DNA of 61,095 bases, taken from NCBI GenBank assembly GCA_013002535.1, contig JABDJK010000103.1:1-61095 (forward strand), read 5' to 3'. Shown here piece by piece: positions 12,207 through 29,364 of this stretch (position 1 is its first letter; each line of letters begins with the position of its first letter). A model generated the notes under the pieces. It was given only the letters and a program-made list of their open reading frames with translations. It had not been told where the DNA came from and did no database searches. A program made the position numbers and the translations under genes. The DNA comes from Hyphococcus sp. GTDB taxonomy: Bacteria; Pseudomonadota; Alphaproteobacteria; Caulobacterales; Parvularculaceae.

Positions 12207-13400
12207 TCAGCGTCCTCTCGGAAGTGCAATCGTTGCGTTTGCGAGCGCAGCAATACCTTCGCGGCGGCCAGTGAAACCTAATTGTTCCGATGTTGTTGCT
12301 TTAACGGAAACGCTGTTCTCTTCAATTCTGAGTATTTTTGAGAGCGCTTCGCGCATGGCGCCGCGATGTGGTCCAATCTTTGGCGCCTCACAAATTAGCG
12401 TCACGTCGCAATGGGTGATCTCGCCGTTTTGGTCAGAAACGACGTCGCGGGCTTTCTCCAGAAATATGCGGCTGGGTGCGCCTTTCCATTGCGGATCAGA
12501 CGGCGGAAAATGATCGCCAATATCGCCGGCGCTGACGGCCCCGAATATGGCGTCGGTTAATGCGTGCATTCCGACATCAGCGTCAGAGTGGCCTTTCAGT
12601 TTAGCGCTATGGGGGATTTTGACACCGCAAATCACGACAGCGTTGCCATCTTCGAACGCGTGCACGTCAAATCCGATGCCGGTTCGATATTCCATTTGCG
12701 CGCTGGTGCGACTGAGAATTTTTTCCGCCATGCCAAAATCTTCCGCCTGGGTGATCTTCATATTATCGGGAGAACTTCGAACAAGTCGAATTGATAAACC
12801 AGCCGCTTCCGCTACCGCCGCGTCGTCGGTCAGCGCCTTACCTTCGGCGCGTCGGTGCGCAGCTAGAATTTTGTTGTACTTAAATCCCTGCGGTGTCTGT
12901 GCTCGCCAGATTGCGTCCCGCGGTATCGTTGCTTTTATAGTATCGCCAGCGCCAGCTTTCTTGATAGTATCATGAACCGGCAGGGCTGCTATGGCGCCGT
13001 CGTTTTCCGCTAGGGCGGCGACAATTTTTGCGATTGAATTGTAGTCAATGAACGGCCGCGCAGCGTCGTGAATCAAAACGGAGGAAGGGTTTTCGCTCGA
13101 CAAACTCTCCAGGCCGAGGCGAACGGAATCCTGCCGCTCGGCGCCGCCGTGAACTGGCGCCAGCAACTTGGGATGGTCGCGAATACCGGACATTGCGCTC
13201 TCATATTCATTGCCGTCATCGCGATGGATGATAATTCGGACAGCGTCGATATCTGGATGGTCGAGAAATGCCCTGGCGGTGCGCGCCAGGATTGGCTCGC
13301 CAGCCAGCAAGCGATATTGTTTCGGCCCGCCGGGCCCAGCGCGCGAACCGCGACCGGCGGCGACGATCACCGCAACTGTTTTTCCATTAACCATTGGCAT
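12207..13400 (-). CDS. ispDF: bifunctional IspD/IspF isoprenoid enzyme
   Basis: Fusion of 2-C-methyl-D-erythritol 4-phosphate cytidylyltransferase (IspD, residues about 1-230) and MECDP synthase (IspF, about 235-397), steps 3 and 5 of the MEP pathway. IspD signatures: VIVAAGRGSRAGPGGPKQY and VLIHDAARPF. IspF signatures: RTGIGFDVHAFEDG, GHSDADVGMHALTDAIFGA and GDIGDHFPPSD, with the metal-binding Asp/His residues. The fusion is typical of alphaproteobacteria. ATG codons at 13400 and 13394 are both possible and neither has a strong Shine-Dalgarno. It is divergent from dusB with 68 bp between. Confidence 0.97.
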   Translation of the reverse strand: MPMVNGKTVAVIVAAGRGSRAGPGGPKQYRLLAGEPILARTARAFLDHPDIDAVRIIIHRDDGNEYESAMSGIRDHPKLLAPVHGGAERQDSVRLGLESLSSENPSSVLIHDAARPFIDYNSIAKIVAALAENDGAIAALPVHDTIKKAGAGDTIKATIPRDAIWRAQTPQGFKYNKILAAHRRAEGKALTDDAAVAEAAGLSIRLVRSSPDNMKITQAEDFGMAEKILSRTSAQMEYRTGIGFDVHAFEDGNAVVICGVKIPHSAKLKGHSDADVGMHALTDAIFGAVSAGDIGDHFPPSDPQWKGAPSRIFLEKARDVVSDQNGEITHCDVTLICEAPKIGPHRGAMREALSKILRIEENSVSVKATTSEQLGFTGRREGIAALANATIALPRGR

Positions 13401-26116: not shown

Positions 26117-28021
26117 TCAACCCTCAAGGTATCCTTTAGACTCCAAATGCTCAACAATTGTCTCCGCAGCGCTTTCGGCGGAGACTTCTGACGTATCAAC
26201 ATCAATCTCTGCGTTGACCGGCGCCTCATAGGCGCTGTCGATGCCAGTAAAGTTTTTGATCTCGCCGCGACGCGCTTTTGCATAGAGGCCTTTCACATCG
26301 CGTTTCTCACAAACCTCGAGCGGTGTTGAGATATATACTTCAATGAATTCGTCTTCATCGAGAAGTTCGCGCGCCATGCGACGTTCGCTCTGAAAGGGTG
26401 AGATGAATGACACAAGCACGATCAGTCCTGCGTCGGCCATTAATCGCGCGGTTTCGCCAATACGGCGAATGTTCTCAACGCGATCGGCGTCGGTGAAACC
26501 GAGGTCCTTGTTCAAGCCGTGGCGCACATTGTCGCCATCCAGGATATAAGTATGCCGGCCCATATCGTGGAGTTTTTTCTCCACGAGGTTGGCGACAGTA
26601 GATTTGCCGGAACCGGAAAGCCCCGTGAACCACAAGACGCATGGGCGTTGATGTTTTGCTTTGGCGCGTGAAGGTTTGCCGACATCAAGGTTCTGCCAGT
26701 GAACGTTTTGTGCACGCCGCAGAGAGAATTCGATCATGCCAGCGCCGACAGTCGCATTCGTGCGCTTGTCGATCAGGATAAAAGACCCAGTTCTGCGATT
26801 ATCATCATATGCGTCAAACGCAACGCTTTGGGCCAGGTTGAGATTGCAATACCCGATGTCATTCAGCTCAAGTGTCTTGGCTGACTGGTGATCAAACGTA
26901 TTGATATTAATTTTGTGTTTGAGCTCGGTGATTGTCGCGGGCACAATCCGGTTTGCCGTTTTCAAAAGATATTGACGGCCCGGAAAAAGCTTTTCGTCCG
27001 ACATCCATAATAGATGCGCTGCAAATTGATCAGTCAGTTCCGCGGGCGATTGCCCAGCGCAGATGATATCGCCTCGCGAAATGTCGATTTCGTCTGTGAG
27101 TGTAATAGTGACAGCTTCATCAAACCCAGCCATTTCAAATTCGCCGTCTTGCGTTACGATCCGTTCAATCTTTGATCTTTTCGCAGATGGCATTACGACA
27201 ACTTCATCGCCGGGAGATGCCGTGCCGCTGGCGATCGTTCCGGAAAACCCGCGGAAATCGAGATTAGGACGATTTACCCATTGAACGGGCATGCGAAACG
27301 GTTTTTCAGCCAGATCACCGCGCACAGAAATCGTTTCAAGATAAGGGAGCAACGCGGCGCCGTCATACCACGGCGTTCGGCTGCTCTTTGAGATGATGTT
27401 GTCGCCCTCAAATGCAGACATCGGGATCGCTGCAATAGACTGAAACCCTAGGGCCTCGGCAAACTTTCGGTAATCCGTATCGATATCACGATAAATCTGT
27501 TCGGAATAATCAACGAGATCCATCTTGTTGATGGCGACAATGATGTGTCGAATGCCAAGCAATGAAGCGATATAACTATGCCGGCGGGTTTGATTGAGGA
27601 TGCCTTTGCGCGCATCGATCAAAATAACGGCGAGATCAGCGGTCGAAGCGCCGGTCGCCATGTTGCGCGTATATTGTTCGTGGCCCGGCGTGTCGGCGAC
27701 GATGAATTTGCGTTTTTCGGTCGAGAAAAAACGATAGGCGACGTCGATAGTGATGCCCTGTTCTCGCTCGGCGGCAAGCCCGTCAACAAGGAGTGCAAAA
27801 TCGATTTTTTCGCCTTGGGTGCCGTGCCGTTTGGTATCGTTTTCAAGCGTCGCCAACTGATCATCATAAAGAAGCTTGGAATCGTAGAGCAGGCGTCCGA
27901 TCAGCGTTGACTTTCCGTCGTCTACGCTACCGCAGGTGATGAAGCGGAGCAGCCCCTTTTTCTCGTGCGCAGCGAGATATTCAATAACATCTTCGTCGGG
28001 CAAGAGGGCAGCTGTTGACAT
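26117..28021 (-). CDS. cysNC: sulfate adenylyltransferase large subunit / APS kinase fusion
   Basis: 634 residues. Residues 1-430 are CysN, the GTPase that drives ATP sulfurylase: [16 protein letters not shown] (G1), [18 protein letters not shown] (G3), INKMDL (G4) and two beta-barrel domains. Residues about 445-634 are APS kinase: [18 protein letters not shown] (P-loop), [16 protein letters not shown], and [16 protein letters not shown]. The fused form, known from rhizobial NodQ and other alphaproteobacteria, makes APS then PAPS. Its ATG touches the cysD stop, so the two are co-translated. Confidence 0.97.
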
Positions 28022-29172
28022 TAAAAATATCCCTCTTGTTTTTTCTTCTCCATCGAAGCCGACTGGTCATGGTCGATTACGCGCCCCTGCCGCTCTGATG
28101 ATCGCGATATCAACATTTCCTGGATGATTTCCGGCAGCGTTGTTGCGTTTGATCGAACGGCGCCTGTCAACGGGTAACAGCCTAGCGTTCTGAATCGCAC
28201 CATCTCATTTCGCGGCGTCACGCCTTCGAGCGGCATCCGGTCGTCATCGACCATGATAAGTGTTCCGTCGCGTTCGACGACAGGGCGCTCTGCGGCAAAA
28301 TACAATGGAACGATAGGGATATCTTCGCGATAGATGTATTGCCAGATATCGAGTTCCGTCCAATTCGATAGCGGGAACACGCGAATGCTCTCGCCTTTAG
28401 CAATTTTTGTATTGTAAATATTCCAAAGTTCCGGGCGCTGATTTTTTGGGTCCCAGCGGTGGCCGGCTGATCGGAATGAAAAGATGCGTTCTTTCGCACG
28501 GGACTTTTCTTCATCGCGCCGTGCGCCGCCAAAGGCAGCGTCAAACCCATGTTTATCAAGCGCCTGTTTCAGCGCCAGCGTTTTCATGATGTCGGTGTGC
28601 ATTTGCGAACCATGGGTAAACGGCCCAACGCCCTGACGCACGCCGTCTTCATTGAAGTGTACAATTAGATCAAGTCCGAGGCGTTTTGCCGTTTCATCGC
28701 GAAACTTGATCATCTCCCGAAATTTCCACGTTGTATCCACGTGCATTAAAGGGAAGGGCGGCTTCGAAGGAAAGAACGCTTTCATCGCAAGGTGCAGCAT
28801 TACGGCAGAATCTTTGCCGACGGAATAGAGCATCACGGGGTTTTCGGTTTCCGCGGCGACCTCTCGCATGATGTGGATTGCCTCGGCCTCGAGCCGATCG
28901 AGATGTGTCATCGAACGAAGCGCTAAACCGTCGGTCGGTGTCGTTAACGTCGACTTGGCGCCAAATTGGGTTGTGGGTGAGTATTCGGCGTCAAGCGCCG
29001 CCAGGCGAGCATTCGCGGTCTCAAGCGTTTTTAAGGTGCATTGTCCGCCGTCTTTAAGTCTGGAAATCGTCTTGCCGTCATTGAACAATTTTCGCGAAAC
29101 GGTTGATAGCGATAGCCCTGCCTTATCTGCGAGTGTCTCGGCTTTTGCGACGAGGTCTTGGATTTCATTCAT
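28021..29172 (-). CDS. cysD: sulfate adenylyltransferase small subunit with N-terminal HTH-like extension
   Basis: 383 residues from the ATG at 29172, about 80 longer than usual CysD. Residues from [19 protein letters not shown] (about 86) onward are a complete Cys[17 protein letters not shown] (PP-loop), [32 protein letters not shown] and EGYF at the end. Residues 1-70 ([40 protein letters not shown]) match small helix-turn-helix proteins of alphaproteobacteria that resemble phage repressors. No Shine-Dalgarno precedes an internal ATG at CysD position 1, so the long form is the likely product. A GTG at 29181 is an alternative start. Confidence 0.93.
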
Positions 29173-29283
29173 AGCGGGCACTTTCGTGGGACAAACCCCA
29201 TGTATTTAGTGAAGACTTGAGCAAATCAACCAAAAGTTGCCAAAGCTGCTGTTTAATCTCTCAATTCGTACAAAATTTCGTGG

Positions 29284-29289
29284 TACAAT
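29284..29289 (+). promoter_or_regulatory. possible -10 box for regulator gene
   Basis: TACAAT in the 181-bp divergent region, 65-70 bases before the regulator start. It is preceded by a near direct repeat (TTCGTACAA / TTCGTGGTACAA) that could overlap the -35. A weak call. Confidence 0.3.
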
Positions 29290-29344
29290 ACCCATGTTTT
29301 GATGCGTCAACTTGCCAAGTGACCTTCTCGAAGAGGTTTCTTAT

Positions 29345-29364
29345 ATTTCTGTCATGACAGAAAT
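29345..29364. promoter_or_regulatory. perfect 20-bp palindrome on a start codon (candidate operator)
   Basis: ATTTCTGTCATGACAGAAAT is its own reverse complement over all 20 bases. Its dyad centre falls inside the ATG at 29354. A site of this length suits a dimeric winged-helix repressor, most simply the GbsR/MarR-like protein encoded from the same place. As RNA it would fold back and hide the start codon. Confidence 0.55.

Follow-up and report, generated by a model that had tools for sequence, protein, structure and literature searches.

Trigger enzymes are known, and those listed for Escherichia coli include BirA, NadR, PepA, PutA and PyrH (PMC8249747). Herein, we describe HTH-CysD, a fusion of a helix-turn-helix (HTH) domain to CysD, the small subunit of ATP sulfurylase. 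The fusion is encoded in a 61,095-nucleotide stretch of Hyphococcus sp. DNA (assembly GCA_013002535.1, contig JABDJK010000103.1, positions 1 to 61,095), hereafter the window. As far as the available part of the above source describes these proteins, HTH-CysD resembles PutA, BirA and NadR in that one chain is apparently both catalytic and a DNA-binding regulator, and it resembles PutA, which acts at putA-putP, in having sites in its own promoter region (PMC8249747). It differs from all three in its enzyme and pathway, which is sulfate activation, and in that its DNA binding is predicted. We regard HTH-CysD as a new trigger enzyme on the best reading of the sequences, and put at roughly 85% the probability that it is both a working subunit of ATP sulfurylase and a DNA-binding regulator of its own operon.

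Three further systems invite comparison, each described here from the accessible portion of its source. BzdR has a similar layout, in which an N-terminal HTH (HTH-XRE) is followed by a linker and an enzyme-derived, shikimate kinase-like domain, and loss of enzymatic activity was part of its evolution into a regulator (PMC3602430); in contrast, HTH-CysD keeps a full CysD, which is usually the sole copy. The sulfate-activating complex of Mycobacterium tuberculosis also joins CysD to a CysN-CysC fusion partner, and its isolated CysC forms a dimer, whereas an HTH on CysD is not mentioned in that portion of the report (PMC4373884). Finally, 3'-phosphoadenosine 5'-phosphosulfate (PAPS) reductase A of Tuber melanosporum is a sulfur-assimilation enzyme that moonlights in transcription; unlike HTH-CysD, it is a fungal activator that works through a C-terminal tail, and it is a different enzyme (PMC4848566). 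No report of HTH-CysD or its operator was found in the literature searched, which covers few subscription papers.

A conserved fusion of an HTH domain to a complete CysD

On the minus strand of the window, an ATG at 29172 opens a frame of 383 codons whose stop codon lies at 28021–28023. The 383-residue product (coding part 28024–29172) comprises a predicted lambda-repressor-like HTH at the N-terminus (residues 1–64; 28981–29172), a flexible linker of variable length (residues 65–87; 28912–28980) and a complete CysD (28024–28911). The adjoining gene on the same strand, cysNC (26117–28021), encodes the GTPase subunit CysN fused to the adenosine 5'-phosphosulfate (APS) kinase CysC (Pfam GTP_EFTU and APS_kinase), and the cysNC start and the cysD stop share one base. 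Residues 88–383 score above the curated cut-offs of two CysD profiles, NF009214 (E 4.4e-164; 545.4 bits against 413) and TIGR02039 (E 4.1e-155; 515.7 bits against 396.6). They hold the PP-loop SVGKDS at residues 117–122 of HTH-CysD and match structure 1zun_A in Foldseek (E 1.5e-23). Judged by these matches and by sequence comparison, one part of which took in 57 of the 80 related loci introduced below, the catalytic domain is intact. The window's genome holds no second CysD match at E ≤ 1e-30. The fused chain is the sole CysD in 43 of the 45 fusion genomes examined (exceptions G040 and G154), a subset of all fusion genomes in which each is at least 90% complete; in these 43 the fused chain is therefore presumably the enzyme.

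The fusion is genuine and is not an artefact. The relatives considered here are 80 of the 89 loci that a scan of named genomes confirmed; counts out of 81 add the window. By record titles they include Parvularcula, Marinicaulis, Amphiplicatus, Hellea, Robiginitomaculum, Litorimonas, Sphingorhabdus and others. In all 80 loci the HTH runs in frame into CysD by BLASTP (L091 and L152 reach a contig end), and none has a stop between the two parts. Within the genus, 22 of the 23 other genomes carry the extension, in open frames of 390–447 residues. At the level of the order, 50 of 249 genomes, counting the window's, gave a match at E ≤ 1e-6; 48 of these matches sit in frames of 368–519 residues, and the remaining two are an HTH-NadE fusion and a stand-alone gene. 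A class-wide sample gave matches to the HTH in 8 of 385 genomes, the window's included, two of the eight being in a different protein. For 23 sequences (the window and 22 relatives), the ratio of nonsynonymous to synonymous differences (pN/pS) was 0.34 in the HTH, 0.85 in the linker (residues 63–87) and 0.16 in CysD, with a high pS of about 0.6–0.7, which indicates that purifying selection acts on the HTH. Two loci are irregular: in L152 the CysD match begins only at residue 227, and in L140 some 69 residues follow the CysD match.

The extension has the predicted fold of a DNA-binding domain. Its helices are placed at residues 3–18, 22–30, 35–40 and 47–64, and an alignment of 60 sequences, for which 59 of the 80 loci were used, has invariant residues at T24, S26-R27-K28, D32-G33-K34, R38 and G42-G43-Q44. 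In the AlphaFold model of the full protein, the predicted local distance difference test (pLDDT) score is 89–96 over residues 1–60 and below 50 over residues 68–82; the HTH modelled alone has a mean of 88.5. Foldseek searches of the PDB placed lambda-repressor-like HTHs on top, including C.Esp1396I, HipB, DdrO and SinR (best E 0.24, probability up to 0.96, template modelling score about 0.5–0.6). PHROG_7669, a family of phage proteins of unknown function, matches residues 3–59 at E 2.7e-8. The predicted fold and this family match together point to a DNA-binding domain in the same chain as CysD. Its phage-type HTH differs from the domain types of PutA, BirA and NadR. The best Pfam match was LacI, below threshold (18.5 bits in the window, E 0.0017, against a cut-off of 27). 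Membership in the LacI family was considered and rejected: the HTH scores 16.3–19.3 bits against that profile, and the C-terminal part is CysD, with no periplasmic-binding-protein-like effector domain.

A preliminary description of this locus, made from the window's sequence, had proposed a repressor-like HTH in about 80 residues preceding CysD, with neither a stop nor an internal Shine-Dalgarno sequence between the parts. The extension is real, although it measures 87 residues, and the fusion of a repressor-like HTH to CysD is supported by conservation in related CysD proteins, by selection, by structure prediction and profile search, and by the codons at the CysD start. An internal ATG at 28909–28911 (MTHLDRLE) does stand there in the window, with no evident Shine-Dalgarno sequence before it. 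In an alignment of 78 sequences (the window and 77 loci; L091, L140 and L152 were left out), ATG, GTG and TTG were all missing in 20 at the column of this start, the six columns before it and the next one, so that a short CysD made from that place is unlikely in those 20.

An operator-like dyad that accompanies the HTH

The promoter region of HTH-cysD carries the dyad TGGG-N6-CCCA, commonly in the form TGGGA-N4-TCCCA. In an unbiased count of inverted dyads in the 81 upstream regions, each of at most 300 bp, TGGG-N6-CCCA ranked top, being perfect in 72/81 regions and present in 80/81 with at most one mismatch. Dinucleotide shuffles (100 rounds) gave the perfect dyad in a mean of 0.67 loci and a maximum of 4, and the dyad with one mismatch in a mean of 10.9 and a maximum of 20. 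Upstream of cysD genes that lack the HTH, the perfect dyad was found in 0 of 28 regions of 500 bp. These controls came from 30 HTH-less genomes searched with CysD, which yielded 32 matches; two fragments (L176 and L179) and two matches without a locus were dropped. Fourteen of the control loci, from 13 genomes, belong to the window's family, one of them to its own genus (G014), and 5 of the 28 are distant copies with 44–58% identity. An extended palindrome, CGTGGGA-N4-TCCCACG, was also tried as a search motif and discarded as too strict.

In the window, a perfect proximal dyad (TGGGGTTTGTCCCA; 29187–29200, minus strand) lies 14 bp upstream of the start codon, and a distal dyad with one mismatch (TGGGTATTGTACCA; 29281–29294, minus strand) lies 94 bp from it. 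A proximal site with at most one mismatch occurs in 72/81 loci (median start −20.5 from the start codon), and 60/81 loci have a pair at this threshold, the distal copy being about 60–125 bp farther up. Pair spacings cluster near 58, 72, 84, 94, 104, 116 and 126 bp. For the 32 loci with perfect pairs, which present 17 distinct spacings, the phase at 10.5 bp has an R of 0.51 (p 0.003 by random draws, 0.012 by the Rayleigh test, the loci being related); in the larger set of pairs, 11 bp was the best-fitting period tried. Roughly helical phasing of this kind is compatible with looping or cooperative binding and does not prove them. Between the window's two dyads lies a weak sigma-70-like promoter candidate with a short spacer, TTGATT-N15-TAAATA (29203–29229, minus strand). 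The pattern CTTGA-N17-20-TA occurs in 21/81 upstream regions (shuffle mean 1.6, maximum 5), and the stricter TTGA-N18-20-TAnnnT in only 9/81 (shuffle mean 3.3, maximum 8); the promoter is therefore placed only tentatively.

Perfect TGGGA-N4-TCCCA sites number 34 in the 24 genomes of the genus, and 18 of them are upstream of HTH-cysD, at a distance of about 150 bp or less. The other 16 lie away from it. Two of these are in the window's genome, one in a frame that we take to be porin-like and the other in a presumed desaturase-like frame, about 40 bp before the frame's 3' end. Twelve of the remaining 14 fall inside putative genes, open frames 120 or more codons long, and two do not (L210 and L217); one such place recurs, in the same 562-codon frame of G006 and G010. 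A search for a wider regulon among the perfect sites of these 24 genomes found no shared promoter target. Thus, cysD is the only recurrent promoter target among the perfect sites.

The same HTH occurs in other genes, and the core of the dyad accompanies it there. Of the 26 distinct non-CysD members, 6 have a perfect GGGA-N4-TCCC within 300 bp upstream: four short HTH genes, HTH-NadE and one gene for an HTH-methyltransferase-like protein. In 1000 shuffles the mean was 0.12 and the maximum 2. The core occurs once in the other 76 kb of the loci of the 26 members and is their top dyad as well. HTH-NadE (L184:1987-4299, genome G230), whose enzyme part is an NAD(+) synthase (NF002730, 1040 bits), has the core upstream (TCAAGGGATTTGTCCCTTGA) and is preceded by the perfect palindrome ATCAAGGGATTTGTCCCTTGAT; of 99 genomes of its family, one carries the fusion, which is not widespread. 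HTH-methyltransferase-like proteins, of about 450–470 residues where complete, come from several alphaproteobacterial genomes (L186:381-1781 on the minus strand, L222, L224, L229 and L230), and the dyad GTGGGAAATATCCCAC precedes L230. Their label is our own, as no Pfam or NCBIfam model matched the one member tested, L186. In HTH-FumC (L259:1513-3153, genome G269), a related HTH is fused to a class II fumarase (TIGR00979, 772.6 bits) downstream of a dyad with one mismatch; this is a single genome, the only one available for its family.

Viral contigs carry the module by itself. Eight relatives from IMG/VR (L260–L267) are small HTH proteins of 66–71 residues, the PHROG_7669 match being that of the HTH of HTH-CysD. 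TGGG-N6-CCCA precedes seven of these eight genes, with one to three sites at most 100 bp from the start and 22–34 bp apart if several. HTH-CysD thus shares with phages both an HTH that matches a phage family and, in most of these viral relatives, the dyad, and it differs from them in that its module is fused to an enzyme. The strongest indication that the dyad is bound by the HTH is the recurrence of its core at unrelated promoters of genes with this HTH.

Evolutionary history and alternative explanations

On a CysD tree of 110 rows (L091, L140, L152, L109, L177 and L181 were left out, and L176, L178, L179 and L180 were not entered), a minimum of 3 changes is needed for the HTH label, and 9 for the perfect operator. 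The tree as drawn nests the majority of the HTH-less rows from the window's family among fused ones; many of its forks are weak. Three fused Sphingomonadaceae/Sphingorhabdus rows group with Robiginitomaculaceae rows, a placement that hints at transfer. One HTH-less cysD, with no dyad, was observed in a genome assigned to the window's own genus (L161 in G014; 86% complete, 3% contaminated), where loss, replacement and mis-binning are possible readings.

Several observations weigh against HTH-CysD as a regulator of its own operon. The association between operator and HTH rests on few independent changes (three of the HTH, nine of the perfect operator), and well-supported branches provide one independent pair, too few for a sign test. 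The dyad with one mismatch occurs in 3 of the 28 controls; conversely, 8 HTH-cysD loci have only one-mismatch sites, one locus (L112) has none, and the window's own distal dyad is imperfect. The fold match of the HTH is weak, at the E of 0.24 given above and with identities of 11–25% in the 50 rows listed. In 58/78 aligned sequences a start codon persists close to where CysD begins, and a second, short CysD is possible there. No perfect dyad precedes 20 of the 26 non-CysD members. The remaining 30.7 kb of the eight viral loci contain 10 further TGGG-N6-CCCA, so that in these loci the motif also occurs away from the HTH gene; these are perhaps further operators. Finally, two of three phage records have no dyad in 500 bp even when one mismatch is allowed, and the third has two one-mismatch sites.

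Could the dyad belong to another protein or to the transcript? A divergent MarR/GbsR-like gene starts beside HTH-cysD in the window, and a perfect 20-bp palindrome, ATTTCTGTCATGACAGAAAT (29345–29364), spans its start codon (29354). A regulator of this kind might bind the dyad, leaving the HTH on CysD to do something else. This is improbable: the palindrome core TCTGT-N4-ACAGA recurs in 23/81 upstream regions against 72/81 for TGGG-N6-CCCA, 53 of which are without the palindrome, and the perfect dyad is absent from all 28 HTH-less cysD upstreams, while its core stands before unrelated HTH-bearing genes. The palindrome is perhaps the MarR/GbsR-like regulator's own operator. We consider it equally improbable that the inverted repeat controls translation by forming an RNA hairpin over the ribosome-binding site. 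The nearness of the proximal repeat to the start codon would suit a hairpin, but the second copy has the same consensus far upstream, uncompensated single-base changes are frequent (AGGGA...TCCCA, TGGGA...TCCCG), and the consensus is common to other HTH genes and viral contigs at varying distances. Least probable of all is that the extension belongs to a distinct HTH gene upstream or results from a mis-called start, the enzyme being made from the internal ATG. An ATG does occupy that column in 50 of the 78 aligned sequences, the window's among them; against this stand the unbroken frame in 80/80 loci and the 20 sequences with no start codon nearby.

The main alternative to sensing is plain autoregulation by concentration, in which the HTH binds the operators and merely caps the amount of enzyme. 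This would be a narrower form of regulation by HTH-CysD, compatible with it, and we hold it to be a serious contender, if somewhat short of an even chance. HTH-cysD accounts for about half of the perfect sites in the 24 genomes, the rest having no common promoter target, and the short and viral members likewise have sites before their own genes. Moreover, the linker is variable and modelled with low confidence, so that tight allosteric coupling is not obvious. On the other side, the HTH has been kept fused to a whole catalytic subunit across many genera, which suggests, without proving, a benefit from coupling. As to the preliminary description, its suggestion that the enzyme could be self-regulating gains support from the distribution of the dyad between fused and HTH-less cysD genes and from the same core before other HTH genes. 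On the divergent region the present findings differ from it: the conserved sites track cysD and not the MarR-like gene. Its suggestion that HTH-CysD senses substrate is conjecture.

Elsewhere in the window, one frame (12207–13400) seems to join what we presume to be IspD- and IspF-like halves.

A proposed feedback circuit and its meaning

We propose the following mechanism for HTH-CysD. The HTH, of the small phage-type family represented by PHROG_7669, would bind TGGG-N6-CCCA as a pair. The promoter would lie between two such sites on about the same side of the helix, the first close to the ribosome-binding region and the second about 60–125 bp farther up. Both may be occupied by an HTH-CysD assembly that probably pairs through the CysC dimer of CysNC; CysC is the likely pairing point because the dyad needs two HTHs and isolated M. 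tuberculosis CysC is a dimer. Occupied sites would shut off cysD-cysNC, perhaps by looping, the effect thus probably being repression rather than activation. When there is little enzyme, or all of it is busy with catalysis, it would leave the DNA and the operon would be expressed; the signal may be the level of free enzyme or its occupancy by substrate or product.

In a broader reading, to which we give somewhat better than even odds, a small phage repressor module and its operator (core GGGA-N4-TCCC) were grafted repeatedly onto unrelated alphaproteobacterial housekeeping enzymes, namely CysD, NAD synthetase, class II fumarase and a methyltransferase-like protein. Each fusion would form a self-contained feedback circuit, the enzyme sensing its own state and adjusting the transcription of its gene accordingly, and HTH-CysD, with its paired and phased operators, would be the most widespread.

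Few enzymes are known to regulate their own genes directly. HTH-CysD, which belongs to an early enzyme of sulfate assimilation, offers a case with a candidate operator, with natural controls in close relatives that lack both the HTH and the site, and with an enzyme that is usually single-copy. It also gives a testable function to a phage family, PHROG_7669, that is listed as unknown. The findings suggest how a lineage may dispense with a separate regulator of sulfate activation, and that a small DNA-binding module with a predicted site has been attached by evolution to several enzymes.

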